This document shows, in pieces, positions 14,972 to 29,368 of a DNA stretch of 35,347 nt (within the stretch, counting starts at the first letter, position 1; each line of letters starts with the position of its first letter). A program made the translations under genes and the position numbers. A model generated the notes under the pieces. It saw nothing but the letters and a program-made list of their open reading frames with translations, made no database searches and was not told where the DNA came from. This stretch comes from a virus: positions 1 to 35,347 of IMG/VR virus record IMGVR_UViG_3300012920_000119. One strand, 5' to 3'.

Positions 14972-15466
14972 TTATCTAATTCTAAATTGTAAATATACTA
15001 AAGGGTACTTTGCTTTAATATTTGGTTGCGTAATCTTACACCAAGGTGTGCCTTTTGATACATAAATTCTACCAGGATATGATGCAACTACATCTTCTGG
15101 TTCACAGTCATGATATGTAATATACTCACCACCCCAATTCTTTGACCATGCTTTAGCAAAACAAACACTGATTACATAACCATCTGCTGGTCCGTGAAAT
15201 GGTGTAGGATAATCATCGTAAGTATATGTGTGTACGGTTGGATATAAAATATCTGCATTCATATATCTACGCATCTCTGGGTTATGGGTACAAATTTCTT
15301 TCAAGATTTCTTTACAAGTATCGATAATATCTTCATCCTTCATTTCATACAAATCTATTTTCTCTGTATCCATTTGTGTTACCATGTTATCATAAAAACA
15401 TAGTTCTGGATCTGTTTTTGTCTTATCGTACAAGTGGTCTGCTTGTACTGTATGTTGAAGTGCCAT
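14972..15466 (-). CDS. Dioxygenase-fold protein, apparently lacking iron ligands
   Basis: A 164-residue protein that resembles 2OG-Fe(II) oxygenases in its second half: VHTYTYDDYPTPFHGPADG, then WSKNWGGEYITYHDCEPED, GRIYVSKGTPWCK and a final strand ending FRIR. The WGGE element and the strand order fit the jelly roll. However, the usual HxD is HGPAD (H91, D95) with wrong spacing, and the distal His is replaced by Cys-Lys (143-144). It may be a catalytically dead relative, or the ligands may sit elsewhere. It follows a second oxygenase by only 3 bases and precedes nrdA by 9. ACGGAG lies before the ATG. Confidence 0.7.
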   Translation of the reverse strand: MALQHTVQADHLYDKTKTDPELCFYDNMVTQMDTEKIDLYEMKDEDIIDTCKEILKEICTHNPEMRRYMNADILYPTVHTYTYDDYPTPFHGPADGYVISVCFAKAWSKNWGGEYITYHDCEPEDVVASYPGRIYVSKGTPWCKITQPNIKAKYPLVYLQFRIR

Positions 15467-15469
15467 AAT

Positions 15470-16057
15470 TTATTCTCCGTAACTACTAGCGAGTTTTGCG
15501 CCATGCTTTATTGCATACTCTTCATCGCCATCAACTGTTAATTTATAAGCGAGTGTATATCGATAGTCATGCTGATACAAGCGATTGAAAGAACCTGCTT
15601 TGTGTAGCATCCAACCATTGAAAAACACTGCTCGACCTGCTTTAGGTGAGACTGCGCCAATCACATCTTCGTTATTATCATAGAACAAAGTTTCACCGCC
15701 GTACTTAATATCATAATCACGATTGCAATATATTATACATGTTGTGTGACCCCCATCATGGTGAGGTAAACTTACATCATCACATTTCCATGCATTCATA
15801 TATGCTCTCATTATATCATACTCTTTATCAACAAGTGATTTTGCTTGACTAATAATTTTATTGTCAAGTATGTTTCTCCACTTATCAGATAAATCCGCTG
15901 ACATCCCAGACAAAACTCGTTGCTGTTTGTAAATGTCAGTTTCAAATGGGTTCCATTCGAACTGTTTTAAGTCTCTTCTCAGTTCAACTAACTCATTAGG
16001 TAGCATGAAATCATCTACAATATCAATTCTGTAATCATCTACTCGCATTTCTTCCAT
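15470..16057 (-). CDS. 2OG-Fe(II) oxygenase
   Basis: A 195-residue oxygenase of the prolyl-hydroxylase-like jelly-roll type. The iron ligands are in LPHHDGG (H99 with D101) and GWMLHKAG (H152), and RYTLAYKL supplies Arg166 for 2-oxoglutarate. KYGGETLFY and KAGRAVFFNGW are the expected strand signatures. All key residues are present, so activity is likely; the substrate is unknown. Marine T4-like phages carry many such genes. The ATG at 16057 overlaps primase by 19 bases and has GAGG about 8 bases upstream; the ATG at 16048 lacks a well-spaced site. Confidence 0.9.
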   Translation of the reverse strand: MEEMRVDDYRIDIVDDFMLPNELVELRRDLKQFEWNPFETDIYKQQRVLSGMSADLSDKWRNILDNKIISQAKSLVDKEYDIMRAYMNAWKCDDVSLPHHDGGHTTCIIYCNRDYDIKYGGETLFYDNNEDVIGAVSPKAGRAVFFNGWMLHKAGSFNRLYQHDYRYTLAYKLTVDGDEEYAIKHGAKLASSYGE

Positions 16058-17040
16058 TCTGTAAACCTCATCTTTGCACTTAGATTTTTATGTGTGCTTT
16101 TACTTATAATGTCTAATATCTCTAACTTGCTTTTTCCTGCGATAATCATATCGTTAATATCTTTTTCACCGACATTATCAGGCCATATCACAACAGTATC
16201 ATTATTGTCAATATGCTTTTGCATACGCTTTACAATCTCAGGATTGCGTGGTTCATTATCATACACAAATACATAGTCACCATTGCTAGGTAACTTAGTC
16301 GCATCTGCACCTGCCATAGCAATACTATTATCTATAAACATGGAATCGATAGGACCCTCTACAACGTAAATCTTTTCGGTAAGATTGACTTTATCTAACC
16401 CATAAAGTTTAGGTGCAGTCTCATCAAGCATGATAGTGATGTACTTAGGTTTCTCACTACCGAATGCTCGACCTTGAAACCCTGTCAGTTTACCAGTCTT
16501 GTCATAGAAAGGTATGATAAGTCTAGGGTGGTCTTCTTCTACTCTAGGAAACTTATTAGGTATTAATCTGTTGACAAATGTATAGAACTTGTTGACTAGT
16601 CTTAGTTCATCCCATCGCTCTTCAGGTATCTTTCGCATCTGCATATACTTTCGTACTGGATGCTCAGAAGATAGTCTAGAAACGGTTTTAACGGTGTCTA
16701 GGAGGGTTGTTTCTTTAATTACGACTGATTGATACTCAGGTTCATCATGTATTGTGTGCTTACTTTCTCCACTACTATATCTTGCAAGTACATATCTCTT
16801 ATATACTTCTGCATCGACACGCTCTAGTAATTTACCGAAAGTTGTAGATAGACCACAGTTATGGCAACGGTAAAGCATCATGTCTTTGACACGATACAAG
16901 TACCCTCTTGCTTTGGTCTTTTTCTTTTGACTATCGCCACAAACAGGACAACTGAAGTTATAAAGGTAGTCTTTTTTCTTCTTAAAGTTGCGTAGTTTGT
17001 GTGATATGGAATGAATATAATCTAAATCTGTCAACAACAT
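16039..17040 (-). CDS. 61: DNA primase (T4 gp61-like)
   Basis: A 333-residue primase close in length to T4 gp61 (342). An N-terminal zinc-binding domain has CPVC at 31-34 and CHNC at 59-62. A Toprim domain follows, with EGPIDS at 228-233, GADATKLP and VYDNEPRN at 259-266. It synthesises RNA primers on the lagging strand together with gp41 helicase. The ATG at 17040 is the first in frame; a TGA lies two codons upstream. No ribosome binding site precedes it and the promoter -10 box ends only 7 bases away, so the message may be leaderless. It overlaps the oxygenase downstream by 19 bases. Confidence 0.94.
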   Translation of the reverse strand: MLLTDLDYIHSISHKLRNFKKKKDYLYNFSCPVCGDSQKKKTKARGYLYRVKDMMLYRCHNCGLSTTFGKLLERVDAEVYKRYVLARYSSGESKHTIHDEPEYQSVVIKETTLLDTVKTVSRLSSEHPVRKYMQMRKIPEERWDELRLVNKFYTFVNRLIPNKFPRVEEDHPRLIIPFYDKTGKLTGFQGRAFGSEKPKYITIMLDETAPKLYGLDKVNLTEKIYVVEGPIDSMFIDNSIAMAGADATKLPSNGDYVFVYDNEPRNPEIVKRMQKHIDNNDTVVIWPDNVGEKDINDMIIAGKSKLEILDIISKSTHKNLSAKMRFTEWKKCE

Positions 17041-17047
17041 GTTTCAT

Positions 17048-17076
17048 AATATACATTAGTGAGTTTATAATGTCAA
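17048..17076 (-). promoter_or_regulatory. Sigma70-type promoter, TTGACA-17-TATATT, very close to the primase start
   Basis: On the minus strand TTGACA (17076-17071) is followed by a 17-base spacer and TATATT (17053-17048). Only 7 bases separate the -10 from the primase ATG, so the expected transcription start is at or next to the ATG. No Shine-Dalgarno element can fit, which predicts leaderless translation. Confidence 0.78.
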
Positions 17077-17077
17077 G

Positions 17078-17497
17078 TTAAAAAAGGTCTGTCCACGGTA
17101 TATTTGCCAGCACATAACCAACAACTGCCGCACCACCAATCATCAACCAACGCCATTGTTCTAATGCAGTTAGTCTTTCTGTTACCAGTTGATGGTGAAG
17201 TTGCTGGTCCTCTCTTAACTTGCGAATTTCATCCATAATCACTCTATGTGATTTTTCGATTTCCACAGTTACCTCGTCCCGGTGCTTTTCTATTCTTTCA
17301 TGAATTATTTCCACATTATGTCCTATGCTTTGTTCTGTTTGTTCAATTCTTGTCTCTTGCACCGCTATCATAGTATTAATTGACGTTGCTACTTCAGATA
17401 ACTTTTCAATCGCCGTATCGAGTTTGCCAATGACCTTGTTAAGTTGGTCAATGTCTTTCTTTACTATTGCGAGTTCTGTTTGAATATTATCTGCCAT
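17078..17497 (-). CDS. Coiled-coil protein with C-terminal membrane anchor
   Basis: A 139-residue protein with a long heptad-like coiled coil from about residue 5 to 110 and a membrane helix near residues 116-133 (WLMIGGAAVVGYVLANI). This shape resembles XhlA-type proteins that assist holins and also other tail-anchored phage proteins, but I cannot assign it. AAGGG lies about 8 bases before the ATG. It ends just before the primase promoter and follows the DUF1353 gene by 14 bases, so it may belong to the preceding envelope group. Location is likely the host inner membrane with the coil facing the cytoplasm. Confidence 0.7.
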   Translation of the reverse strand: MADNIQTELAIVKKDIDQLNKVIGKLDTAIEKLSEVATSINTMIAVQETRIEQTEQSIGHNVEIIHERIEKHRDEVTVEIEKSHRVIMDEIRKLREDQQLHHQLVTERLTALEQWRWLMIGGAAVVGYVLANIPWTDLF

Positions 17498-17511
17498 AAT
17501 CGCCCTTATTA

Positions 17512-18105
17512 TTATTTATTCAGTTCAGGCGTTTCGTTTCTTTTTCTGTGTCCATTCCATGCGACAAAACCACCAAGTCTTAATGCCCAATATGCTAAGT
17601 AGTTTAGAAAATGAAAACCATTCTGTTCGATGTTGATATCTCTAAATATCTCATCTGCACGTTTTTGAGTAATCTTACCCATTGTTTCTTTCTGACCAGA
17701 TTTAAGTAAAGTTTCATACTTATAAGCATAGTCATGCACCAGTCCACCCATGAGAAGAACACCTGTAGGTGATAACCATGTGTGTAAGAACTTAGGAATA
17801 GATGCACCGTCAAATCTGAAACCTTGCGGTATGATATACTTCTCACCTTCGATAGTAAATGACCAATCATCAGCAACTTCCCAATGGCGAGTGCCTGTTA
17901 TCCACATCCAGATTGCACCCCAAAATCCTTTACCTGCTGTCGGTATTGCAATTGGTCTTAGTTGAGGCATGACGTTGTACTCAAAACCAATTCTTTCTTC
18001 TTTGTTATCAACACCAAACATGTTGATAATAAAACCTATCACAATTAGTATACCAACTACAGTGAACTGCCACCAAGTGACTGCTAAATCAATTATCATC
18101 TGCAT
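17512..18105 (-). CDS. DUF1353-containing membrane protein
   Basis: A 197-residue protein with an N-terminal membrane segment (about residues 10-30, WWQFTVVGILIVIGFIINMF). A DUF1353-like core follows: IIPQGFRFDGASIPKFLH near 91-108 and GGLVHDYAYKYE near 120-131. The conserved Asp of DGASIP and the HDYAY motif are typical of that family, which is found in many phages and has no agreed function. Family members are often 100-150 residues without an anchor, so the anchor is notable. GAAGGAG lies before the ATG. It overlaps the lipoprotein gene by 17 bases and may work in the envelope with it. Confidence 0.8.
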   Translation of the reverse strand: MQMIIDLAVTWWQFTVVGILIVIGFIINMFGVDNKEERIGFEYNVMPQLRPIAIPTAGKGFWGAIWMWITGTRHWEVADDWSFTIEGEKYIIPQGFRFDGASIPKFLHTWLSPTGVLLMGGLVHDYAYKYETLLKSGQKETMGKITQKRADEIFRDINIEQNGFHFLNYLAYWALRLGGFVAWNGHRKRNETPELNK

Positions 18106-19937: not shown

Positions 19938-20864
19938 TTAGACGATTTTAGCGTAGACTGTCGTACATCCTGTTTGATGAGTTTCGTAATCAAACTGAAT
20001 GCTCATGCCTTCTGCTGGATTCTCATCATCTAACTGGTCGATAGCAGTTGTTACACTTTTACCTGTGATACCACCAAACTGTGTCAAAGGTGCTGATACA
20101 GTACCTTTTGTTTCAGTCATAGCAGGAATATCAAACGTCAGACCAATCGTTGCAAGTTTACCTTGTAGTTGCAACAATGCTCCTTTAGGGTTGATATATT
20201 CACGCTTGCCAATCATACCCACATGTGCATTCAACTGTTGCAGTACATCTGGATTCTTGATATCTACCAATGCCAAGTCTGTACCATCACCAGTTGGGTT
20301 CTGTGAGTACCCATCTTCTGATAGAACATCTGTAATTGTATCTACAATATTTCTATGCTCTTTCATTTCTGGTTTGTCGTGTACATAACCCATTTTGTCC
20401 ATTTTTAAATGGGCGTCAAATGTTTTTGCCATATAACCTTTACCTGTTTTAGGGTCATACATCATGTGAGGTTTGAAGTTATCTTTTGTCACCTCTTCGT
20501 ATGATGCAGTCACAGGTTTTTTAGGTGCGGCAGGTTTCGCTGGTTCTCTTTCTTTAGCGATATCTGCTTTTGCTTTTGCAAGTCTTGCTTTATCTGCTTT
20601 CTTCTTTTGAATTTTAGCGAGTTTTGCTTGTGCGGCATCTGCACGTCCAGAAGTTGACATTCTGTTTGCAACTTTCTTAACGCCTGATACTGCACCTTTT
20701 GCTACCTTCGCTACTCCTCGACCGATTGCACCTACAATACCTTCTTCAAGTTCATTGAGGTCTTTGTCTGATAGATTGTCAATGTAAGCATCGAACAACT
20801 CATCATTCATCTCAAGAACTGATACGAGTTTGCTTTCGGTGAGATGTGTCTTAAATGATTTCAT
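19938..20864 (-). CDS. Lys/Ala-rich protein with capsid-targeting-like leader
   Basis: A 308-residue protein beginning MKSFKTHLTESKL. The first ten residues closely resemble the T4 internal-protein capsid-targeting leader (MKxxxxxIAE), and LTE fits the gp21 protease site LxE. Residues about 45-117 are Gly, Ala and Lys-rich (GVAKVAKGAVSGVKKVANRM and following), as in DNA-binding or internal head proteins. The C-terminal part is strand-rich, with LVDIKNPDVLQQLNAHVG and YETHQTGCTTVYAKIV. GGGAGAG lies before the ATG. It follows two probable virion proteins, so a head-internal or structural role is plausible. No enzyme motif is seen. Confidence 0.75.
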   Translation of the reverse strand: MKSFKTHLTESKLVSVLEMNDELFDAYIDNLSDKDLNELEEGIVGAIGRGVAKVAKGAVSGVKKVANRMSTSGRADAAQAKLAKIQKKKADKARLAKAKADIAKEREPAKPAAPKKPVTASYEEVTKDNFKPHMMYDPKTGKGYMAKTFDAHLKMDKMGYVHDKPEMKEHRNIVDTITDVLSEDGYSQNPTGDGTDLALVDIKNPDVLQQLNAHVGMIGKREYINPKGALLQLQGKLATIGLTFDIPAMTETKGTVSAPLTQFGGITGKSVTTAIDQLDDENPAEGMSIQFDYETHQTGCTTVYAKIV

Positions 20865-20879
20865 TACACTCTCCCTTTA

Positions 20880-21347
20880 TTATGTTCCGATTGTGCAACC
20901 AGTATTTGACAAGATTTGCCACTTCGAATTATTAAACATCAATGTGATATTATCACCTGCATCTTCCATGGTGATAGATAATCCGTTTGCAAAGTTTGCA
21001 GGATTAATTTGAACATCACCACCATCTGTAATGAGAGTGATATTTTTAATTTGTCCTTGTACACCATCAGCAAAAGTCAATGCATTACCAGAAGTAGTTA
21101 CTGCAGTTGATGTAATATTAGTGATTGCTGTTGTTACACTGACAGCGGCAGTTGAACCCGCCGCCGTGATTGCTTCTGCAGTTCCATCAAATGCTAGAAA
21201 ACCATCTAGTTTGATATTACCTGCAATATTCTCCAACAGATTTTGTACTGTTAGTTTTTTATTCGAACCACCTTGTACGATGTGAAGCAAGTCTGCGGAT
21301 GCACCTGAACTTGCGGCGGTCAATTCACTTATTTTTTGGTCTGCCAT
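20880..21347 (-). CDS. Probable virion structural protein
   Basis: A 155-residue protein beginning MADQKISELTAASSGASADL, a start I associate with phage fibre or decoration proteins of the MADxKISELT type. The rest is strand-rich and low in charge, with Thr/Ala/Val repeats (TTAITNITSTAVTTSGNAL) and NGLSITMEDAGDNITLMFNN. The sequence suggests a beta-structured surface protein that forms oligomers. AGGAG lies about 8 bases before the ATG. It lies downstream of another structural gene, separated by a GC-rich hairpin. Head decoration, neck or fibre are all possible. Confidence 0.75.
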   Translation of the reverse strand: MADQKISELTAASSGASADLLHIVQGGSNKKLTVQNLLENIAGNIKLDGFLAFDGTAEAITAAGSTAAVSVTTAITNITSTAVTTSGNALTFADGVQGQIKNITLITDGGDVQINPANFANGLSITMEDAGDNITLMFNNSKWQILSNTGCTIGT

Positions 21348-21411
21348 ATTAGTCTCCTATTTTGCAGTTTATTCACTCTATGCTTTGTTACAAGACATAG
21401 ACTTTTCTAGG

Positions 21412-21435
21412 TGGGCGCAACTTCAATGGCGCCCA
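21412..21435 (-). other. GC-rich hairpin between two structural genes
   Basis: The minus strand reads GGGCGC, a 10-base loop, then GCGCCC (21434-21429 with 21418-21413). One flanking T-A pair extends the stem to 7. It stands out in an AT-rich genome and lies 7 bases after the stop codon at 21441. No run of T follows, so it is not a clear rho-independent terminator; it may protect or weakly terminate the message of the gene before. Confidence 0.6.
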
Positions 21436-21440
21436 ATTCA

Positions 21441-21998
21441 TTATGCTGATACAGTCAGCGTATCCGTTACACTAGCGATTGCTACTGCGGCATTGACCGC
21501 TTCGCCATCAACCAAAGTACCACTGTTCAATGCAATGTTCTGGTTAGCAATCGACAATACATCGTTCTCTGCTACACCACCATTACCAGCGGCATAAGTC
21601 TTACGGAATGTAAGTTTGTTAGTTCCTGTTCCAGACTGGTAAGCGGCAGTAAATGTCGCATCTGTACCTGAACCTGCTTGTGAGTTAGTTACTGTGATGG
21701 TTGGTGTACCACCAGAAGTATTTACTGTAATCTTTTCGTTGTAGACAACAGTTACATCGATGTTACCACCTGCCGCTTCGCCAAATGATGTAGTAGCGAA
21801 AACTACAGAACTAACATCTGCAATGTTAAGTTTAGCGGCACTTGACAATTCGCCAATTGCTACAATAACTTCTTCTAGACCTGTATTAGGGTCTTTATAA
21901 ATCCAACCTTTAGAGGTTGCATATGTATCTCTCTTTTGTGCAGTAGTCAAAAACTTAGGTTTTGCTTCGTCTGCATCTGTTGCGCCCCATGAAGACAT
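21441..21998 (-). CDS. Probable virion structural protein
   Basis: A 185-residue protein beginning MSSWGATDADEAKPKFLTTA, a start found, as I remember, in structural proteins of marine T4-like phages. The middle has GWIYKDPNTGLEEVIVAIG. The second half is a strand-rich, Thr/Gly/Ser-rich region with IDVTVVYNEKITVNTSGG and TFTAAYQSGTGTNKLTF, typical of Ig-like or fibre surface domains. A perfect TATAAATA late box lies upstream and AAAGGAG precedes the ATG, so expression should be strong and late. The hairpin after the stop fits a highly expressed transcript. The exact place in the particle is unknown. Confidence 0.82.
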   Translation of the reverse strand: MSSWGATDADEAKPKFLTTAQKRDTYATSKGWIYKDPNTGLEEVIVAIGELSSAAKLNIADVSSVVFATTSFGEAAGGNIDVTVVYNEKITVNTSGGTPTITVTNSQAGSGTDATFTAAYQSGTGTNKLTFRKTYAAGNGGVAENDVLSIANQNIALNSGTLVDGEAVNAAVAIASVTDTLTVSA

Positions 21999-22022
21999 AG
22001 TATTTTCTCCTTTAATTTTTTA

Positions 22023-22544
22023 TCAGAAACCGTGTTTCTTCAAAGTATTTATAGTTTTCCTTGCGTCAGTGTGCCATATACCGATGCCACCTGCCGATTC
22101 CCATTCTCTAATATTTTTGATGTAATCATCAATCAATATGTTTTGTATACCATCAGTCACCGCATAATCTTTCTTTTCTTGTCTCAATACAAGATTTATG
22201 CGTTGCTTCGGCATCATAAGATGTCTCTTTATCCAAGACTTCTTACCATCTTTACAATTCTTATCCCATTGTGCATAAGCAGAGAGAATATAAGGATGAC
22301 TTGACTTTACATATCTGAACAATTCTTTACCGCCTGGCATCCAATCAAGAGTGTGCCAAAACGATGGATTCTTTTCAATCTGTGCTTTGATTTTACCTTT
22401 TGCGCCTTTAGATATATCTGGTGATGTAAAATCTTCACCTGTCGTATCTTTTACGCCTTTGATAAAATCACAAAGAACTCCATCCATATCTAAAAATATT
22501 TTCGCTTGCCCTCTTTGTTCAAATTGTTTTAGTGTTATAGTCAT
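22023..22544 (-). CDS. HAD-superfamily phosphatase (deoxynucleotidase-like)
   Basis: A 173-residue enzyme with the HAD nucleophile motif DMDGVLCD at 19-26. A Thr/Ser motif follows in YILSAY (85-90), a Lys-rich segment near 98-107, and an acidic metal motif at IDDYIKN (138-144, Asp139/Asp140). The compact size is like 5'(3')-deoxyribonucleotidases and nucleic-acid 3'-phosphatases. It would remove phosphate from a nucleotide or polynucleotide end. It starts directly after the stop of the gene before. Its place among NTase and ligase-like genes suggests nucleotide or nucleic acid repair, but the substrate cannot be read from the sequence. Confidence 0.85.
   Translation of the reverse strand: MTITLKQFEQRGQAKIFLDMDGVLCDFIKGVKDTTGEDFTSPDISKGAKGKIKAQIEKNPSFWHTLDWMPGGKELFRYVKSSHPYILSAYAQWDKNCKDGKKSWIKRHLMMPKQRINLVLRQEKKDYAVTDGIQNILIDDYIKNIREWESAGGIGIWHTDARKTINTLKKHGF
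22046..22053 (-). promoter_or_regulatory. T4-type late promoter box TATAAATA
   Basis: An exact TATAAATA on the minus strand, inside the 3' end of the HAD phosphatase gene and 47 bases before the ATG at 21998. The expected start near 22040 gives a leader of about 42 bases with AAAGGAG. It probably drives the two structural genes downstream. Confidence 0.72.
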
Positions 22545-22793
22545 TTACTCATCTTCTTCTTTTGGTTTTTCTTTTACGTTGTGCGTGACTTTCATAGTCG
22601 TTTCTCTGTTAGCATCTACGAATACCAGTTGCAATCGATTTGTTATCTCATGGTCTGGTGTCTCTTTTAACTTCAAGTCTATTGTAACATCTTTATCACA
22701 AAAGTCAAGACCTAAATCACGAACTTTCTTAATAAAATTAAACCACAAATCCTCTACCTTGGGAACATCGTCCCTTGTAAATTGCTTTGCCAT
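22545..22793 (-). CDS. Small hypothetical protein
   Basis: An 82-residue protein beginning MAKQFTRDDVPKVEDLWFNF. A helical first part is followed by strand-like segments (KDVTIDLKLKETPDHEIT, RLQLVFVDANRET) and a Lys/Glu/Pro tail (KEKPKEEDE). No family is recognised. The ATG has only a weak AAAG upstream. The stop is immediately followed by the HAD phosphatase start, so the two are probably co-translated. Confidence 0.65.
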   Translation of the reverse strand: MAKQFTRDDVPKVEDLWFNFIKKVRDLGLDFCDKDVTIDLKLKETPDHEITNRLQLVFVDANRETTMKVTHNVKEKPKEEDE

Positions 22794-22820
22794 CGTACTA
22801 ACTTTCGTGCGAGTGAACCC

Positions 22821-23042
22821 TTAGTCGGATTCTTTATCGCCTTTCCAATTAGCATCAATGTAGTCAAAAAATTTCTTCTTATCTCCGTCTGACAATTCTG
22901 AAGGTGACTTAACGCCACGCTTTTTTAACTCTTTAGCAAAGAACTTCTGATATGCACTTTGGTCTTCAGTTTTAGTGCTATCAATCTCTTCTCTACTTCT
23001 TTCTTTCAGATTGAACGGATTATTGATTCCTAATCCAAACAT
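22821..23042 (-). CDS. Small phage protein with charged C-terminal motif
   Basis: A 73-residue protein beginning MFGLGINNPFNLKERSREE. The second half (FFAKELKKRGVKSPSELSDG and FFDYIDANW) is a helical motif that I remember from several proteins of marine T4-like phages, where it often sits at the C terminus of proteins of unknown role. It shares a TAATG overlap with the gene before. Function is unknown; the motif might mediate binding to a shared partner such as the head. Confidence 0.7.
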   Translation of the reverse strand: MFGLGINNPFNLKERSREEIDSTKTEDQSAYQKFFAKELKKRGVKSPSELSDGDKKKFFDYIDANWKGDKESD

Positions 23043-23575
23043 TATTTGCTCTCCTTTGTTTCTACTTTAGTGTCTAGATAATCCGCAGAACCATCTAGTT
23101 TATCTACTGCTACTGCGACTTTATTAGTCCACCAAGTAGGTAGTTCGTCTTCATCACTTAATTTATCTAGTTCAGTTTGCATCTTCTGTAGTGCAGACAT
23201 AGCAATCTGTACTTGATTTTTTGCAGATGCTACATCAGTGTGTCCGTCTTCTTTTACAAACTCTTCACTCTTACCTCTGACTTTAGCGGCAAGGTCTGCA
23301 TCTGCTTTACCCCATGTACCTGACGATTTGGTCACGAAAGAATTTACTCTTGCGAGTCCCCATTGCTGTGGGTTTGTTCCAGGTCTATGACCACCCTTCC
23401 ATGCGGCAACGCCTCGCTTAAATACTTGCTTCAATATACCAAGCGGCATACCAGATTTTTCTGCTTTCTTCTTTAGTGCGGCATCATTCTCATCAAGCAA
23501 TCTTTCTTCTAAGTTTGCTTCAACTTGAGATACTTCTGCTAGTACTTGTGCCATTGTTTTTCTATAATGTGTCAT
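23042..23575 (-). CDS. DUF5824-like protein with leader resembling capsid-targeting sequence
   Basis: A 177-residue protein beginning MTHYRKTMAQVLAEVSQVEA; LAE near residues 12-14 could be a gp21-type cleavage site. The central segment holds SGMPLGILKQVFKRGVAAWK, then GHRPGTNPQQWGLARVNSF, which I associate with the DUF5824 family of marine phages. A coiled-coil-like, Asp/Lys-rich tail follows. ATG at 23575 forms ATGA with the cupin gene, and GGGAAGAG lies just upstream; the in-frame codon at 23587 was rejected. Possible head-associated protein of unknown role. Confidence 0.75.
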   Translation of the reverse strand: MTHYRKTMAQVLAEVSQVEANLEERLLDENDAALKKKAEKSGMPLGILKQVFKRGVAAWKGGHRPGTNPQQWGLARVNSFVTKSSGTWGKADADLAAKVRGKSEEFVKEDGHTDVASAKNQVQIAMSALQKMQTELDKLSDEDELPTWWTNKVAVAVDKLDGSADYLDTKVETKESK

Positions 23576-23844
23576 CGCTCTTCCCAAATCTTTATTTTAA
23601 GATTTCCTTTTCCTTTTATTACTCTATGATACTGCAATGCAGGTATCTTATAAATTCTTCCTCTCTCAAGTGTCACTGGTAATTCATTATCTAACTGTAA
23701 CTGCCAATCTACACCTTCAAGAATTGTTATCTCTCTATTGTATTTATCCCTATGCCAAATCAACTCTGCATCTTCAACATCTTCGCTGAAAATACGTTCA
23801 TCGCCTCTATCAGTATATGGATTACCAGAAGAAGTTTCCGCCAC
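23572..23844 (-). CDS. Cupin-like small protein
   Basis: A 90-residue protein starting at a GTG (23844) with AGGA about 8 bases upstream. It has a polar start and then a strand-rich segment (REITILEGVDWQLQLDNELP) and RGRIYKIPALQYHRVIKGKG, which looks like the second half of a cupin barrel with one His in YHRV. There is no full set of metal-binding His residues, so it is more likely a binding or structural cupin than an enzyme. It overlaps the end of the 1006-residue gene by 23 bases and is coupled to the DUF5824-like gene. Confidence 0.65.
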   Translation of the reverse strand: MAETSSGNPYTDRGDERIFSEDVEDAELIWHRDKYNREITILEGVDWQLQLDNELPVTLERGRIYKIPALQYHRVIKGKGNLKIKIWEER

Positions 23845-26842
23845 CAGATAATCCTAACTGTTTTGCATAATAAGGCATTCTACACGCCCAATAACCAGGT
23901 TTTGTTTTGTCTTTCTTTGCTGGACAATTATGTCTAGCAGAAAATGATTTTCTTGCTTCTGGATCATTGAGTTTGATTTTCAAACCAGTAGTGTCGCCCC
24001 AACTGACTTTTTTTACATTACCAGATTTAGGGTCTTTCACATACACATAATACTTCTTAGGTCCACCTGCTTTCGGTTTATTCAACTCAGGTTGCTTTTC
24101 TTCTTCAATCATAGGACAATCAAGTGGTACATGATTACCTTCGTACATTGCAAATGAACCAATGTCAGTCTCTAATAATTCTTTATCAAAGTAATCTAAG
24201 TTAGTTCTGTCTATTGTTTTCTTCCAGTCATTGAATGTTTCATAGTACATTTCAGAACCCACACGATAGATGTTACTTTCTATCAATCTGGACTCTTGCT
24301 TGTTCATATTCTTTAGACGTTCTTGTTCTAATTTCTTGAGTTTTGGTCTTAGTCTCATCGCAATACGATTAATCAATGCACCTTTACCTTGCAGTCTTTT
24401 TTCGATTGCTTGCTTTTCTGCAAAACTCAAATCGTTGTAATTCTTTCCTTTGATGTATCTCTTACGCATTAGATTTCTTGCATGACGTTGCGCCCTCTTC
24501 TGCAACTTCTCAGGTGAAGATGGTCTCTTGAGAGATATTGCTCTTGCTCTTGCAATCTTACCTTTCAGTCTACGCATTTGCTGACTACGCTTAAATCTCT
24601 GCGCTGGTGTCAATACTTCATCGACCCAACTATAATTATCGTCAATGACTGTTCTCTGCATACCATCATCACTAGACATGTTTGACCAGTCTTCATCGTC
24701 ATGGTCACCATCTCCGTCTAGGTCTGGATAGATATCTTCTACATCTTCTAGTTCATCATAACCATCGATGACACCTTCTAAATCTGTTGCAAGTTCTTCA
24801 TCATTGTCGATATCTACTTCTTCTTCTAAAAAGATATCGATATTCCAGTCATCACGCAAATCATCTTCTTCGTCATGTGAGATATACGAAAAATCTTCAC
24901 TTGCCGCTTTTGCTCTCGCCATCTGGTCAGGTGTAGGTGCGCCCTTGTCACCAACTTTTCTCATCTTCTCACCAGAACCTTTTTCAATTCGTTCTCTTTT
25001 CTTGCGAATATTATCCCAGAGACTTTCGCCTTTCGCCATCTTTGTTATAGTCGCATAGTAGACAGATGGTCCTTCTTTCTCACCGTATCTGTCGATGAAG
25101 TCTTGCTTGTCTATATCTTTTTCATACTTCTTCATCTTTTCTTTTTCTGCAGGTGTCAGTGTTCGTTCATCTATCTCAAACTCATCTTTGAATGGTTTGT
25201 CACCTTTTTTAATAATTCTACCTGACTTTTTGGTCACAGGCACTTTTAAGTTCTTCAGTGTTTTATGTCTTCTTAAATATGTCTTCTCGCCTACAGATTG
25301 CCCTGGCGTTACCTCTTTCGTATGGTCAGCATAGTCTTTACCTATTTCATATGCTTCGTATTTGTCAGATTTTCTTTTCGTGCCATCTGCTCTCGGAATA
25401 AGTCCTTTTGCTTTAAGATGTGCTATATCTGTGAATCCTGCTTTACCTGACTTGTATCGTGCCATCGCATCTTTTGTATTAGGTGCGTCTTCATTCATCT
25501 CTTTTGTTTTTTTCTTCATCTTATTGATGTAAGCACGATATACATCTGCAGGTCCAGTCTTACCCATAACTCTTGCACGTTGCTCCATTGCAATCGCCGC
25601 TTGAATTTTATGTGCATGTTTTCTACCAGAACCCTCTATCTTCTTCACACTTGCTTTTGCATCTTCTACAGTAGCAAACTTCAGACCATGAATAGTTCCT
25701 TTTGGATTTTCATCAGTATATAAATCAGAGTGTTTGTCGCTATTAGCAGGTTGACCTTTTTTTCTTGCTATTCTCGGATTATCTTCTTCATCTGTCGATA
25801 CTTCTCCAAACATTTGCTTGAATTTCTTCGTGTGTTTTGAAGGTTTTGTTTTTGCTGTAGCATCTCCAGGTGCTGGTTCGTAAGCACTTGGGTCGTCATC
25901 TGATTTCTTTGCACCTTTCTTGAAATGTGCATCTCTGGCAGATTTGGTAGACTTGGACTTGATTCCCTTATAGTATTTTGCTGGTTGTGTACCGGACTTA
26001 TCTGCGATATCTTTGTCTTGTCGGACAGTGGATCTATCTTCGTCATCTTTCTTTTTCTTCTCGGATAGGTCAAACAACCACTTTGTATAAACATTACCAT
26101 CTTCTCCTTTGCAATACACAAAGTTTGGACCTTGTTCTATGATTTCATATTCTGTTTCTTCATTCATGTCATAGACGATATCGCCTACATTGAAGAACTC
26201 ACCCATGAGATATGCTTCACGGAGTTCATCTCTGTCAAACATAACATCATCGCTGATAGAATATACTTTGCGAATTTGATTGTAAATTGCAGTCTTTTCT
26301 CTGTCTGATAGTTTAGATGCAAGTACTTCTTTGAACTTATCAAGTTTACCAGTCTTTGCAAGTTCACGCAACTTAGTACCAGAGATACCTTCGACACCTT
26401 TTGCTTTCGGGTCACGCTTACCAGCGGACACTGAATTGATAGAGTTAAAGTTAAAGTCTTTGCCGTTATATCTCTTAATGAGATTGACCATCTCAGCATC
26501 ACGGTCTTCACCAAATACTAATGTGATATCTGTGTAACCGTCTGCTTCTAATTCTTTTGCAACTTCAATGATTGTTCTTGCTCTTGACTTTTTGAAAATA
26601 CCAAATGCTTTCTTAGCATATTTTGCTTTTTCATTATATGTCAGAGGGTCTTTTTCTTTGTTGCTTGTATGTGACAAGTAAAGACGGGCATCTGCGCCTC
26701 TCGCCTTTGCTTCTGATTTGATTTTATTTACGAGTTTCTCATGCCCGATAGTAGGCGGGTTCATTCTGCCGAATGAGAATACAATTTTCTTTTCTTGTGC
26801 TTCCTTCAGTCTTTGCTGAAGGTCTGTAAACTTTAACGTCAT
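23822..26842 (-). CDS. Large multidomain protein with N-terminal nucleotidyltransferase domain
   Basis: A 1006-residue protein. Residues about 18-165 form an adenylyl/cytidylyltransferase domain: FSFGRMNPPTIGH (TxGH motif near 31-34) and ISGTKLRE (153-160), the two nucleotide-binding marks of the NMNAT/CTP-transferase fold. A long charged, low-complexity region follows, with an acidic block (DLDGDGDHDDEDW) and then a basic block (LTPAQRFKRSQQMRRLKGK). The end resembles the DUF5872 domain (ARHNCPAKKDKTKPGYWACR, then YAKQLGLSGGG). The first 14 residues (MTLKFTDLQQRLKE) could be a capsid-targeting leader. The ATG at 26842 forms ATGA with the gene before; a TTG four codons upstream was rejected. 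NAD-type metabolism is one possible role. Confidence 0.85.
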   Translation of the reverse strand: MTLKFTDLQQRLKEAQEKKIVFSFGRMNPPTIGHEKLVNKIKSEAKARGADARLYLSHTSNKEKDPLTYNEKAKYAKKAFGIFKKSRARTIIEVAKELEADGYTDITLVFGEDRDAEMVNLIKRYNGKDFNFNSINSVSAGKRDPKAKGVEGISGTKLRELAKTGKLDKFKEVLASKLSDREKTAIYNQIRKVYSISDDVMFDRDELREAYLMGEFFNVGDIVYDMNEETEYEIIEQGPNFVYCKGEDGNVYTKWLFDLSEKKKKDDEDRSTVRQDKDIADKSGTQPAKYYKGIKSKSTKSARDAHFKKGAKKSDDDPSAYEPAPGDATAKTKPSKHTKKFKQMFGEVSTDEEDNPRIARKKGQPANSDKHSDLYTDENPKGTIHGLKFATVEDAKASVKKIEGSGRKHAHKIQAAIAMEQRARVMGKTGPADVYRAYINKMKKKTKEMNEDAPNTKDAMARYKSGKAGFTDIAHLKAKGLIPRADGTKRKSDKYEAYEIGKDYADHTKEVTPGQSVGEKTYLRRHKTLKNLKVPVTKKSGRIIKKGDKPFKDEFEIDERTLTPAEKEKMKKYEKDIDKQDFIDRYGEKEGPSVYYATITKMAKGESLWDNIRKKRERIEKGSGEKMRKVGDKGAPTPDQMARAKAASEDFSYISHDEEDDLRDDWNIDIFLEEEVDIDNDEELATDLEGVIDGYDELEDVEDIYPDLDGDGDHDDEDWSNMSSDDGMQRTVIDDNYSWVDEVLTPAQRFKRSQQMRRLKGKIARARAISLKRPSSPEKLQKRAQRHARNLMRKRYIKGKNYNDLSFAEKQAIEKRLQGKGALINRIAMRLRPKLKKLEQERLKNMNKQESRLIESNIYRVGSEMYYETFNDWKKTIDRTNLDYFDKELLETDIGSFAMYEGNHVPLDCPMIEEEKQPELNKPKAGGPKKYYVYVKDPKSGNVKKVSWGDTTGLKIKLNDPEARKSFSARHNCPAKKDKTKPGYWACRMPYYAKQLGLSGGGNFFW

Positions 26843-28083
26843 TTTTTCACCCAATTTTTTGCGGCAGTGAAGTTAGCACGACTGAACTCTAAACGGTTCA
26901 CAAGTTTAACTGCATTACCTTTTAATCTGTCCACTGCCACAAACCCCTCAGGTTCTGTGGTCTTCAATCCATCATCTGTTCTCAGAAATGTCCCAATAGA
27001 TTTAACTTTTGACAATTTCTGCACCAATACATTCTTAGCGTCCATAATATAGTTGTATAACTGTGTAGCATTCTGCAAGTCTGCAGATTGCTGTTCAATC
27101 TTATTTAGTCCATCTTTCTTTATTTCAGTATACTTTTGTTTACCTGCTTCAGATTTTACACTCTCAATCTTCTTGTCTAGTTTAGTAATCCAGTAGTTCT
27201 TGAAATCAGAAACCATTGTATTACTATCAGGTAAATCATCAGTACTTCTAAAATACGAGTTCAGATGAACCTTAAAATTAGTTGGGATAGCGAATTGGTT
27301 CTTTTCATCAAAGTTATCTGCCATCTGGTCTAAGTACTTAGACACTTTAGGTAGAAGACTTTCAATCCGTTCGATATAACCATTGAGAAGTTCGGTTTCA
27401 TCTTTAGTCAGTGTAACTGTGCCTGAAACATCTTTATATGAGGCATCATCGAACCAGACCGTCTTCTGCTTTCTCAACTTACTAATATTTATATTAAATG
27501 ATGCTTTCATAGTGTCTAATGTGCGACCTTTATATTCTGTGTGAAATATGATACCCATCTTAGTTTTTTGTACAAATTTACCAAGAGGTCCATTCGCAGG
27601 TATCGCATAGACAATAGTGTTAGGTTGAAAGATAATGTAATCTTCACCATCAATTGTTTTCTTTTGCAAGTCAGATTTCGTATACATCATATCGCCTTGT
27701 ATGACGCCTTTGATGCCTAACTTTGATAATTCGTTTAGTGCTACAGTCAACTTCTCAACAAGACCACCAGTATGGTTCTTGCGAATGTCTGCAACTGTTT
27801 TGTTTAGTTTAGGGTTAACATTAAATACTGATTTAGTAGCAACAAAGAACTTACCATCTGACGGATCAATACCACAGAAAATAGCAGGTGCGCCATCCCA
27901 TTTAGTAGTGATGTTTACACCAGTACGAACATTACTTGATAGCATGTTACGAACTTCTTTGAGAAAGTTAATAGCATTCTCTGCACCGCTAGAACCATCA
28001 GTAATAATGGTTTCTTCGATATGTGTCAGATGTGTATTGCGGTTTTCTGACAGTTCTTCTGTGTGTTTCTTAAAACTTAACAT
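26839..28083 (-). CDS. Ligase-like nucleotidyltransferase (DUF6267-like)
   Basis: A 414-residue protein with an adenylation-type motif, TTKWDGAPAIFCG (Lys61 in KWDG), followed by KSVF, VIQGDMMY near 128-134 and GIIFHTEYKG near 177-186. The order resembles motifs I, III and IV of the DNA/RNA ligase and capping superfamily. The second half is helical and shows no clear OB-fold domain. I associate this with the DUF6267 family of T4-like phages. It begins MLSFKKHTEELSEN, a possible capsid-targeting leader with LSE. The ATG has no ribosome site, and a consensus promoter lies 6 bases upstream. End joining or covalent nucleotide transfer is the inferred chemistry. Confidence 0.75.
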   Translation of the reverse strand: MLSFKKHTEELSENRNTHLTHIEETIITDGSSGAENAINFLKEVRNMLSSNVRTGVNITTKWDGAPAIFCGIDPSDGKFFVATKSVFNVNPKLNKTVADIRKNHTGGLVEKLTVALNELSKLGIKGVIQGDMMYTKSDLQKKTIDGEDYIIFQPNTIVYAIPANGPLGKFVQKTKMGIIFHTEYKGRTLDTMKASFNINISKLRKQKTVWFDDASYKDVSGTVTLTKDETELLNGYIERIESLLPKVSKYLDQMADNFDEKNQFAIPTNFKVHLNSYFRSTDDLPDSNTMVSDFKNYWITKLDKKIESVKSEAGKQKYTEIKKDGLNKIEQQSADLQNATQLYNYIMDAKNVLVQKLSKVKSIGTFLRTDDGLKTTEPEGFVAVDRLKGNAVKLVNRLEFSRANFTAAKNWVKK

Positions 28084-28089
28084 AGTACT

Positions 28090-28117
28090 ATAATACCATA
28101 CTTTCCCTATTTGTCAA
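28090..28117 (-). promoter_or_regulatory. Sigma70-type promoter, TTGACA-16-TATTAT, abutting a start codon
   Basis: On the minus strand TTGACA (28117-28112), a 16-base spacer and TATTAT (28095-28090). Only 6 bases lie between the -10 and the ATG at 28083, so transcription should start at the ATG itself and the message would be leaderless. The rest of the 91-base gap (28118-28174) shows no clear terminator. Confidence 0.75.
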
Positions 28118-28174: not shown

Positions 28175-29368
28175 TCATCTAATCGTTGTCTTATTTAGTC
28201 CAGATTTACTCTTGTAGTCCATCATCAGATGAGATGGATATACACCTGATTGTTTGTTTCTTATATTTAGTTTGAAATCAAAGTATGAATTACCAAACTT
28301 CATATCTATTCTTTTTGCACGACCATCGTTCCCGGCGTAGATAAGTTCGATGTTACCTACGATAGTTGCCATCGCATCATTTTTAGCAGGGTCCATGAAC
28401 CAGAAGTCTACTGACCCATTCTCTTTTCCATGTACCATGTAATAGTTTGAACCGATTGCTGTTGATATAAGTGCTTTCAATTGCTGTCTGTCTACAGTTC
28501 TTGAAGCATCAACTTTATTTTCTTTTAGTGCTACTGCAGAACCATAGTTGTTGAACACATTACAGAACTTAGAGTTATCGATACCAAGTGCCTTGAGAAG
28601 ATTAACACCCATTACGTTAGTCACTTGACCTGTCTTAATTTCTTCTTCTGGAAATGCTTTACCTCTTGCTTTGACACCAGTATTAACAAATGTCAATGTG
28701 CCACCATGCTTGAGTGATAAGTGAGACTTCTGTCCATTTGCATGTGTGATATCTACGTCAGTCAATTTAGCACCATGGTCTTGATGTCGAGGCGGCATCA
28801 CTACAATCTTACCACCACTATAACCAAATGGTCTACTTTCATTTGCACCACCAAGTTGTTCGACACTGACTGCAGGTGACCTCATATTCTTTGAAGTCAA
28901 GTCAATGATATATCTTGCATGTGCTTTCATTGGGTGGTCAGTATCTTCACCTCTTAGCAATTCAGCAATCGCATTTGTGAAGTCTCGTTCAAACTTCAGA
29001 CCTTTATTTTCTTTTGCGCCGCCTGCTGGTTGACCACCGAACTCTTCAGACTTTTCAATCTTAGAAATAGGCAGTGTTACTTTTCTATCACTACCTGTCA
29101 TTTTACCACTTAACTCAAGCGTCACATTACGCTGACCTTTTAGTGCAAGTATCTTACTCGCAAGCATTTGCGTATGTGCTTCATTCGAATATTGTGGAGA
29201 GTATTTGTAGAGTTCGCCTTGAATGTTTATTTCATCAGCATAGAACAAACCATTATCTGTCATGAAGTTGTTTGTCTTTCCTCTTACAAGAAATATTTTT
29301 TCGACTAACAACTCTGACCGATACTCTTTACTCTCTCTAGTGATTTCATTAACACTGAGATTTGCCAC
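28175..29368 (-). CDS. Unknown protein with PD-(D/E)xK-like nuclease signature
   Basis: A 397-residue soluble protein starting with GTG directly after the stop of the SprT-like gene; GGGG lies about 9 bases before it. KGLKFERDF (Glu127) and then GAKLTDVDITHANGQKSHLS followed by LK (204-220) resemble the restriction-endonuclease-like pattern with TDV as first acidic site and SxK as last. This spacing occurs in some type II enzymes, but Ser replaces the usual Glu. The N-terminal 100 residues are strand-rich, and the C terminus is basic (YKSKSGLNKTTIR). I do not recognise the family. A nuclease for host DNA or packaging is possible, not proved. Confidence 0.6.
   Translation of the reverse strand: MANLSVNEITRESKEYRSELLVEKIFLVRGKTNNFMTDNGLFYADEINIQGELYKYSPQYSNEAHTQMLASKILALKGQRNVTLELSGKMTGSDRKVTLPISKIEKSEEFGGQPAGGAKENKGLKFERDFTNAIAELLRGEDTDHPMKAHARYIIDLTSKNMRSPAVSVEQLGGANESRPFGYSGGKIVVMPPRHQDHGAKLTDVDITHANGQKSHLSLKHGGTLTFVNTGVKARGKAFPEEEIKTGQVTNVMGVNLLKALGIDNSKFCNVFNNYGSAVALKENKVDASRTVDRQQLKALISTAIGSNYYMVHGKENGSVDFWFMDPAKNDAMATIVGNIELIYAGNDGRAKRIDMKFGNSYFDFKLNIRNKQSGVYPSHLMMDYKSKSGLNKTTIR

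Follow-up and report, generated by a model that had tools for sequence, protein, structure and literature searches.

Results

A block of four leader-bearing genes follows gp41

The window (the whole stretch of DNA analysed, a virus record of 35,347 bases) contains no tRNAs and carries genes for DNA polymerase, UvsX, gp41, gp61 and NrdA/B. From this gene content and from synteny, it was grouped with the T4-like Kyanoviridae-type phages. A near-identical phage, G001 (IMGVR_UViG_3300017909_001085; 125,860 bases), matched the window at 98.7% over 9.5 kb and at 93.7% over 11.2 kb, and we used it as a proxy for the rest of the window phage's genome. The block under study (19.5-29.4 kb) comes after gp41, as it does in Pelagibacter phage HTVC008M, Methylophilales phage Melnitz and cyanophages.

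The initial annotation had claimed that four proteins of this block begin with a short leader ending in an LxE triplet. All four N-termini were confirmed exactly as it had written them, each at the first ATG of its frame on the minus strand. The 308-aa protein (19938..20864) starts with MKSFKTHLTE followed by S (20835..20864), which has the exact T4 spacing. The sequence and a family alignment indicated that this leader is followed by a basic region and a conserved C-terminal domain of unknown function; no family could be assigned to the protein, and its structural model was of low confidence (pLDDT 64, pTM 0.30). The 177-aa DUF5824 protein (23042..23575, minus strand) starts with MTHYRKTMAQVLAE followed by V (23534..23575); its relatives have MTRYNKTMSEALSE (Melnitz) and MKSFNDILIE (L139), and the DUF5824 module is also found at the C-terminus of relatives' cytidyltransferases. 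The 1006-aa nucleotidyltransferase fusion (CDS 23822..26842, minus strand) starts with MTLKFTDLQQRLKE followed by A (26801..26842), and the 414-aa DUF6267 protein (26839..28083, minus strand) with MLSFKKHTEELSE followed by N (28045..28083); both leaders were judged from the N-terminus and from relatives.

Three further minus-strand genes lie in or beside the block. The 397-aa protein (phrog_8438; 28175..29368) has no leader at its start and holds the position of HTVC008M gp126. The 5'-deoxyribonucleotidase (NT5C; 22023..22544) is without a leader in the window, and the 185-aa protein of the phrog_11617 family (21441..21998) showed weak similarity to a virion-annotated S-SCSM1 protein.

An L/I-x-E end on an N-terminal leader of about 10-20 residues was present in all four proteins. 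The T4 spacing was exact only in MKSFKTHLTE, the other three leaders being 3-4 residues longer. An aromatic residue occupied position 4 in three leaders (F, F, Y), and the fusion protein had F at position 5. Position 7 was H, H, T and D in the window leaders and F, Y, L or I in many homologues. Proteins of one phage that are otherwise unrelated share the leader.

The leaders are conserved in relatives but optional

Leader starts were conserved across relatives in all four families; the letters drifted and the pattern was kept. Near-copies of the T4 tag were found (MKTFVEFLTE and MKKFSAFLNE). DUF6267 homologues started with MKTFVEFLTE followed by D, MKKFGTYLNE followed by S, MKSFLSYLTE followed by T, or MRRFESFLIE followed by Q. 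In the alignment of the 308-aa family, M1, K2 and F4 belonged to the small set of invariant columns, even with identities between members as low as 25%. The Melnitz block starts include MTRYNKTMSEALSE, MKKFSELTSE and MKNFKNHIAE.

In pelagiphage-like DUF6267 proteins only the leader end was left (MYNDLLVE followed by D, the shortened form in HTVC008M, and MELLNE followed by D), and cyanophage DUF6267 proteins began directly at the domain (MSKNTHLEHLED and MAKNTHLEHLED). Some cytidyltransferases also had no leader. These leaderless members indicated that the leader is an optional extension. The HTVC008M cytidyltransferase kept MKTLKELL without an LxE. A T4 leader with Asp at position 10 is targeted but not cut (PMC9026906); by analogy with such T4 mutants, the HTVC008M enzyme may be targeted and remain uncut.

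The leaders occur more often than expected by chance

Under a loose rule (an aromatic residue at positions 3-5 and [LI]xE ending at positions 9-16), 5 of the 51 N-termini of the window matched, compared with 1.9% of internal Met positions. Among distinct N-termini of relatives, matches were found in 24/60 DUF6267, 25/69 cytidyltransferase, 9/30 DUF5824 and 13/16 308-aa family members. The rule found nothing in 13 of the 14 block or core families examined besides these; the exception was UvsX (9/24), and because UvsX of some relatives matches, the loose rule was judged not specific.

We then used a strict pattern, built on the T4 tag and on T4 mutant data, in which targeting depends on residues 4 and 7 and cutting on residues 8 and 10 (PMC9026906). 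It was scored on 2086 distinct N-termini of relatives, with the window excluded. The pattern matched 23 of these N-termini versus 2 of 10615 internal Met positions (Fisher 2e-16). Shuffling gave 0.33 matches when done within each N-terminus and 0.81 when done by column, with a maximum of 3 or 5 in 1000 shuffles. At least 19 of the 23 matches fell in the flagged families (11 DUF6267, 4 308-aa family, 3 cytidyltransferase and 1 DUF5824), and the remaining four include one HAD-type phosphatase and Melnitz gp16. As a positive control, a strict scan of T4 60-109 kb picked exactly ipII and ipIII. Two caveats apply to the strict counts: N-termini of homologues cannot be treated as independent, and MKSFKTHLTE of the window was already known when the pattern was drawn up (H was permitted at position 7 and T at position 8).

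Several other tagged or tag-like proteins were seen in relatives. HAD-type phosphatases with tags are encoded at G004 157426-158043 and L097 3523-4143 (MIRFKEYLAE and MKRFREYIEE); in G004, the gene lies next to DUF6267. Tag-like starts were also seen on P-loop kinase-like proteins encoded at G001 111870-112577 and Melnitz 64603-65271 (MTKRFSDIKDDIIIEQIKELNEGVYDPGIF and MKTFAELQEGVYDPNIF); in L139 and L123, a protein opening with that kinase-like stretch carries modules of the cytidyltransferase protein.

The leaders precede enzyme-like domains and basic modules

The claim of a 1006-residue nucleotidyltransferase fusion held, as judged by family searches, the PF01467 family and a module comparison. 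Directly behind the leader, a cytidylyltransferase/NMNAT-like catalytic domain (26243..26800, minus strand) contains FGRxNPPTxGH, GxDR and SGTKLR, of which the first and last represent the HxGH-type loop and the SxxxxR motif of the NMNAT/cytidylyltransferase superfamily. The family signatures FGR-x-x-P-x-x-x-GH, G-x-DR and S-x-x-x-x-R are conserved. PF01467 matched 23 of 24 cytidyltransferase members; the window protein itself fell below the cut-off. When the cytidyltransferase domain was searched against PDB as a single sequence, nothing usable was returned, and a PDB profile search gave weak matches to this enzyme class only.

The rest of the protein is a chain of small, mostly basic modules (23825..26017, minus strand), several of which occur elsewhere as separate small proteins. 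Residues 735-860 stand alone as Melnitz gp16 (MKKFSELTSE) and HTVC008M gp142 (MRTYRAF), both with tag-like starts; residues 346-450 correspond to a 108-aa protein in G003, and residues 925-1006 to HTVC008M gp131. The G001 counterpart (15031-17610) has 859 aa and is otherwise nearly identical; it lacks residues 346-450 of the 1006-aa protein. From sequence alone, we infer that a module was gained or lost between these near-identical phages, and the data would fit a cargo built by module fusion behind a single tag.

The 414-aa protein had been described as a ligase-like nucleotidyltransferase, which held only in part. The DUF6267 family has 42 invariant columns, including K61-x-D63-G64 (KxDG), and the window protein also carries EGxV and KLxxR, which resemble the ligase superfamily by motif only. 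In a PDB fold search with its model (pLDDT 77), no match was found below 0.001, and ligase adenylation domains appeared only at E above 0.6; a DUF6267 profile search of PDB found nothing. Because the fold comparison was not significant, 'ligase-like' is kept as a motif-level inference.

A gp21-type protease and a gp23-type site are present in the same phage type

No gp21-type protease gene is present in the 35-kb window fragment. Peptidase_S77 (gp21 type) and the gp23 capsid protein were both found in 6/6 relatives tested, the near-identical G001 included. The G001 capsid protein reads GMLNE/AIPTN at the site where T4 gp23 reads FLTE/AEIGG; the corresponding sites are ILTE/A in S-SZBM1 and LLTE/A in S-CREM2. 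The cut position in these capsid proteins was placed by comparison with T4 and was not measured.

Large proteins starting with MSVTFTQL or MSVTFTQV are encoded at G001 54251-56590 and G002 33979-35568. The gene for the G001 MSVTFTQL protein neighbours the protease gene within the head genes. These large proteins are possibly core or cargo proteins.

Tagged homologues are detected in cyanophage virions

Published proteomics detected homologues of the 1006-aa enzyme in virions of four cyanophages: S-SM1 T4-GC190 (PMC3037559), S-SZBM1_140 (PMC9146016), S-CREM2 gp154 (PMC10665884) and S-SCSM1_91 (PMC9602691; also the record annotation). We read their N-termini as MKKFSAFLNE (S-SM1), MRFRQFIIE (S-SZBM1), MKNFSSFLTE (S-CREM2) and MKSFLQFLKE (S-SCSM1), each followed by A, so that all 4/4 mass-spectrometry-detected cyanophage homologues with readable N-termini carried the tag. 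Virion content was not measured for the window phage: these data come from cyanophage homologues, none are available for the window phage or its near relatives, and there are no N-terminal peptide data for any homologue.

Across the whole S-CREM2 genome, 4 of 219 annotated proteins were tagged; all four were among the 52 virion-detected proteins, versus 0/167 of the undetected ones (p = 0.003). They are a SAM hydrolase, gp13 (78 aa), an APH-like kinase and the cytidylyltransferase, and all fit the strict pattern, which had been fixed before the S-CREM2 genome was read. The S-SZBM1 dataset is shallower, with 30 proteins, and includes one of the three tagged proteins of that phage (0/2 under the strict pattern alone). 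When the two phages were pooled under the strict pattern, 4/6 tagged proteins versus 78/431 others were detected (p = 0.013). A scan of about 196 kb of S-SCSM1 found leaders on two proteins, of which the NMNAT was detected in virions and the other, a small protein, was not. S-SZBM1 also offered a natural control: its leaderless DUF6267 protein is missing from the virion list, and its neighbours 139 and 140 are listed. Many virion-detected block proteins had no strict tag, indicating that other packaging routes exist.

We made several further observations in these genomes. S-CREM2 gp12-gp15 (OR473000.1 1-16000, 7704-13331) are a Cas9-like protein, an unknown protein, an APH-like kinase and another unknown protein, each of which was detected in the virion. 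The tags of gp13 and gp14 are strict, and that of gp15 (MNFSEFNESLQNPLFE) is loose. The Cas9-like gp12 was considered and rejected as a tagged protein, as its LRFASFMAE followed by A starts at residue 17, at a CTG codon inside the annotated frame; it is only a lead. Three small tagged proteins are not reported from virions: SSZBM1_191, SSZBM1_192 and SSCSM1_30 (MKSFKSFLSE, MKTFKQYITE and MKTFKQFMSE). The first two (OL473597.1 42311-43125) adjoin the virion protein SSZBM1_190, and the third lies at MK867354.2 19215-19535. Virion-annotated S-SCSM1_93 (69 aa; L206 16626-16835) has a tag-like stretch, KKRTFKEFLEYIE, at its C-terminus.

Promoter matches leave the timing of expression unresolved

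The T4-type late-promoter motif TATAAATA was found at 22046..22053 (minus strand), upstream of the 185-aa structural-type gene, with the 308-aa gene downstream on the same strand. Overall, the motif was not commoner than chance (24 versus 23.3 expected); it lay upstream of 17 G001 genes, including capsid, scaffold and sheath (binomial 1e-13, with the upstream share approximated at 8.4%). A copy of TATAAATA also lies 39 nt upstream of the G001 P-loop kinase gene, whose product has the tag-like start MTKRFSDIKDDIIIE.

Immediately before the DUF6267-cytidyltransferase pair, we found a sigma-70-like match rather than a late-promoter match (TTGACA-16-TATTAT; 28090..28117, minus strand). It agrees at 11/12 positions and is a consensus match only; late expression of the pair is not thereby excluded. 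With the late motif before some genes and a sigma-70-like match before others, the timing is mixed or unresolved. The sigma-70-like match (window 28083-28117) ends 7 nt before the DUF6267 ATG and no Shine-Dalgarno sequence is visible near the start; a leaderless DUF6267 message would be implied if this promoter is real.

Discussion

The leaders are probably T4-type capsid-targeting sequences on injected cargo, and they probably function as packaging tags in the window phage; we are less confident that all four proteins are cut. The evidence in hand comprises the leaders and their conservation, the finding of both the protease and the capsid-protein site in this type of phage, and the detection of tagged cytidyltransferase homologues in virions. 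The initial annotation's proposal of T4-like targeting and packaging is supported by these results. Points that count against it are the detection of only 1 of 3 tagged proteins in S-SZBM1, the extra length of three of the four window leaders, the degraded leaders of HTVC008M and the sigma-70-like match in place of a late promoter before the DUF6267 pair. Cleavage, injection and action before phage gene expression are still inferred. For the window phage, it is likewise an inference that the 414-, 177- and 308-aa proteins are packaged.

In the proposed mechanism, the leader would dock each protein into the prohead core during head assembly. The gp21-type prohead protease would then remove the leader by cutting after L-x-E, leaving the mature enzyme in the head with the DNA, to be ejected together with it. 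T4 internal proteins follow the same route of docking, cutting and ejection (PMC3012670). The predicted cargo is an NMNAT/cytidylyltransferase-like enzyme and the DUF6267 protein, together with small basic modules that are either part of the same polypeptide or separate; separate polypeptides tend to carry their own tag. What the cargo might do is a guess; the best fit to the domains is that NAD-type nucleotides are raised and incoming DNA ends are repaired or protected at time zero.

The main rival, which remains possible, is that the tagged proteins are prohead core parts with a structural job, such as scaffolding, DNA condensation by the basic modules or portal-region assembly. The enzyme domains would then be secondary or serve assembly only, and injection would bring no gain. 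The modules are indeed short, basic and shuffled between proteins, the G001 head genes include, beside the protease, one for a 779-aa protein that begins in a similar way (MSVTFTQL), and T4 core proteins also bear such leaders. However, the catalytic signatures of the cytidyltransferase are invariant, DUF6267 keeps its 42 invariant columns including KxDG, and an unrelated SAM hydrolase and APH-like kinase carry the same tag in S-CREM2 virions, so that cargo fits better. It also cannot be ruled out that only part of the set is cargo, with the 308-aa protein and the cytidyltransferase packaged and MTHYRKTMAQVLAE and MLSFKKHTEELSE being relics or chance. The restriction of T4 spacing to MKSFKTHLTE and the shortened or absent DUF6267 leaders in pelagiphages and cyanophages favour this view, whereas the 11/23 strict matches contributed by DUF6267 homologues and the three Melnitz block starts given above speak against it.

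A third possibility, that virion detection reflects carry-over of abundant late cytoplasmic proteins and that the leaders are unrelated N-terminal helices, seems remote. Carry-over was left open for S-SCSM1 by the authors of PMC9602691, and no cleavage has been reported for these proteins. Against it, every tagged S-CREM2 protein was detected and no undetected one was tagged, detection was repeated in four phages, and the leaderless DUF6267 went undetected beside detected neighbours.

Returning to the cargo reading, a bolder form of it is that Kyanoviridae-type marine phages own one general tag, exchangeable between proteins, by which a whole kit of enzymes is loaded into the head. The kit would hold the NAD-type nucleotidyltransferase and the ligase-like enzyme and, elsewhere, a P-loop kinase, an HAD phosphatase, a SAM hydrolase and an APH-like kinase. 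We lean slightly against this form at present. If it were true, basic modules would be fused behind one tag, and injected metabolism and DNA repair would start infection before any transcription.

Cyanophage papers have repeatedly detected the NMNAT-like enzyme in virions and could not tell a carried protein from a contaminant; the tag supplies a mechanism and a sequence rule. With this rule, one can predict which of the many unknown proteins in abundant ocean phages would be injected, and enzyme injection becomes testable. Both the T4 tag and the presence of the NMNAT-like enzyme in virions, with carry-over left open, were already known. In the literature searched, which excluded most subscription papers, we found no work linking capsid-targeting sequences to cyanophage or pelagiphage enzymes. 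Within that literature, the tag-NMNAT link, its extension to DUF6267, DUF5824 and the 308-aa family, and module fusion behind one tag appear to be new.

Comparison with known systems

The leaders resemble those of T4 IPII/IPIII (MKTYQEFIAE), IPI and Alt in having a basic residue 2, an L/I-x-E end and, in three of the four window leaders, an aromatic residue 4. At residue 7, many homologues are aromatic or hydrophobic as in T4, but the window leaders are not uniformly so. Further shared features are a gp21-type protease and unrelated proteins that share the leader alone. In contrast to T4, several leaders have 13-14 residues and cleavage is not shown; the T4 cargo consists of small inhibitors or the ADP-ribosyltransferase Alt, whereas that of the window would consist of nucleotidyltransferases and multi-module basic proteins.

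A close match among virion proteins is the cyanophage NMNAT-like T4-GC190, whose catalytic domain is 30-35% identical (S-SZBM1, S-SM1, S-CREM2), whose leader is of the same type and whose gene neighbourhood is the same in most. The window protein, whose own virion content is unmeasured, differs in adding a long chain of extra modules. The HTVC008M gp126-gp143 and Melnitz gp14-gp26 blocks share with the window their gene order after gp41, and their proteins are homologous. Unlike the window, HTVC008M has a cytidyltransferase without LxE and encodes several of the modules as proteins of their own; Melnitz has kept leaders in at least five block proteins.
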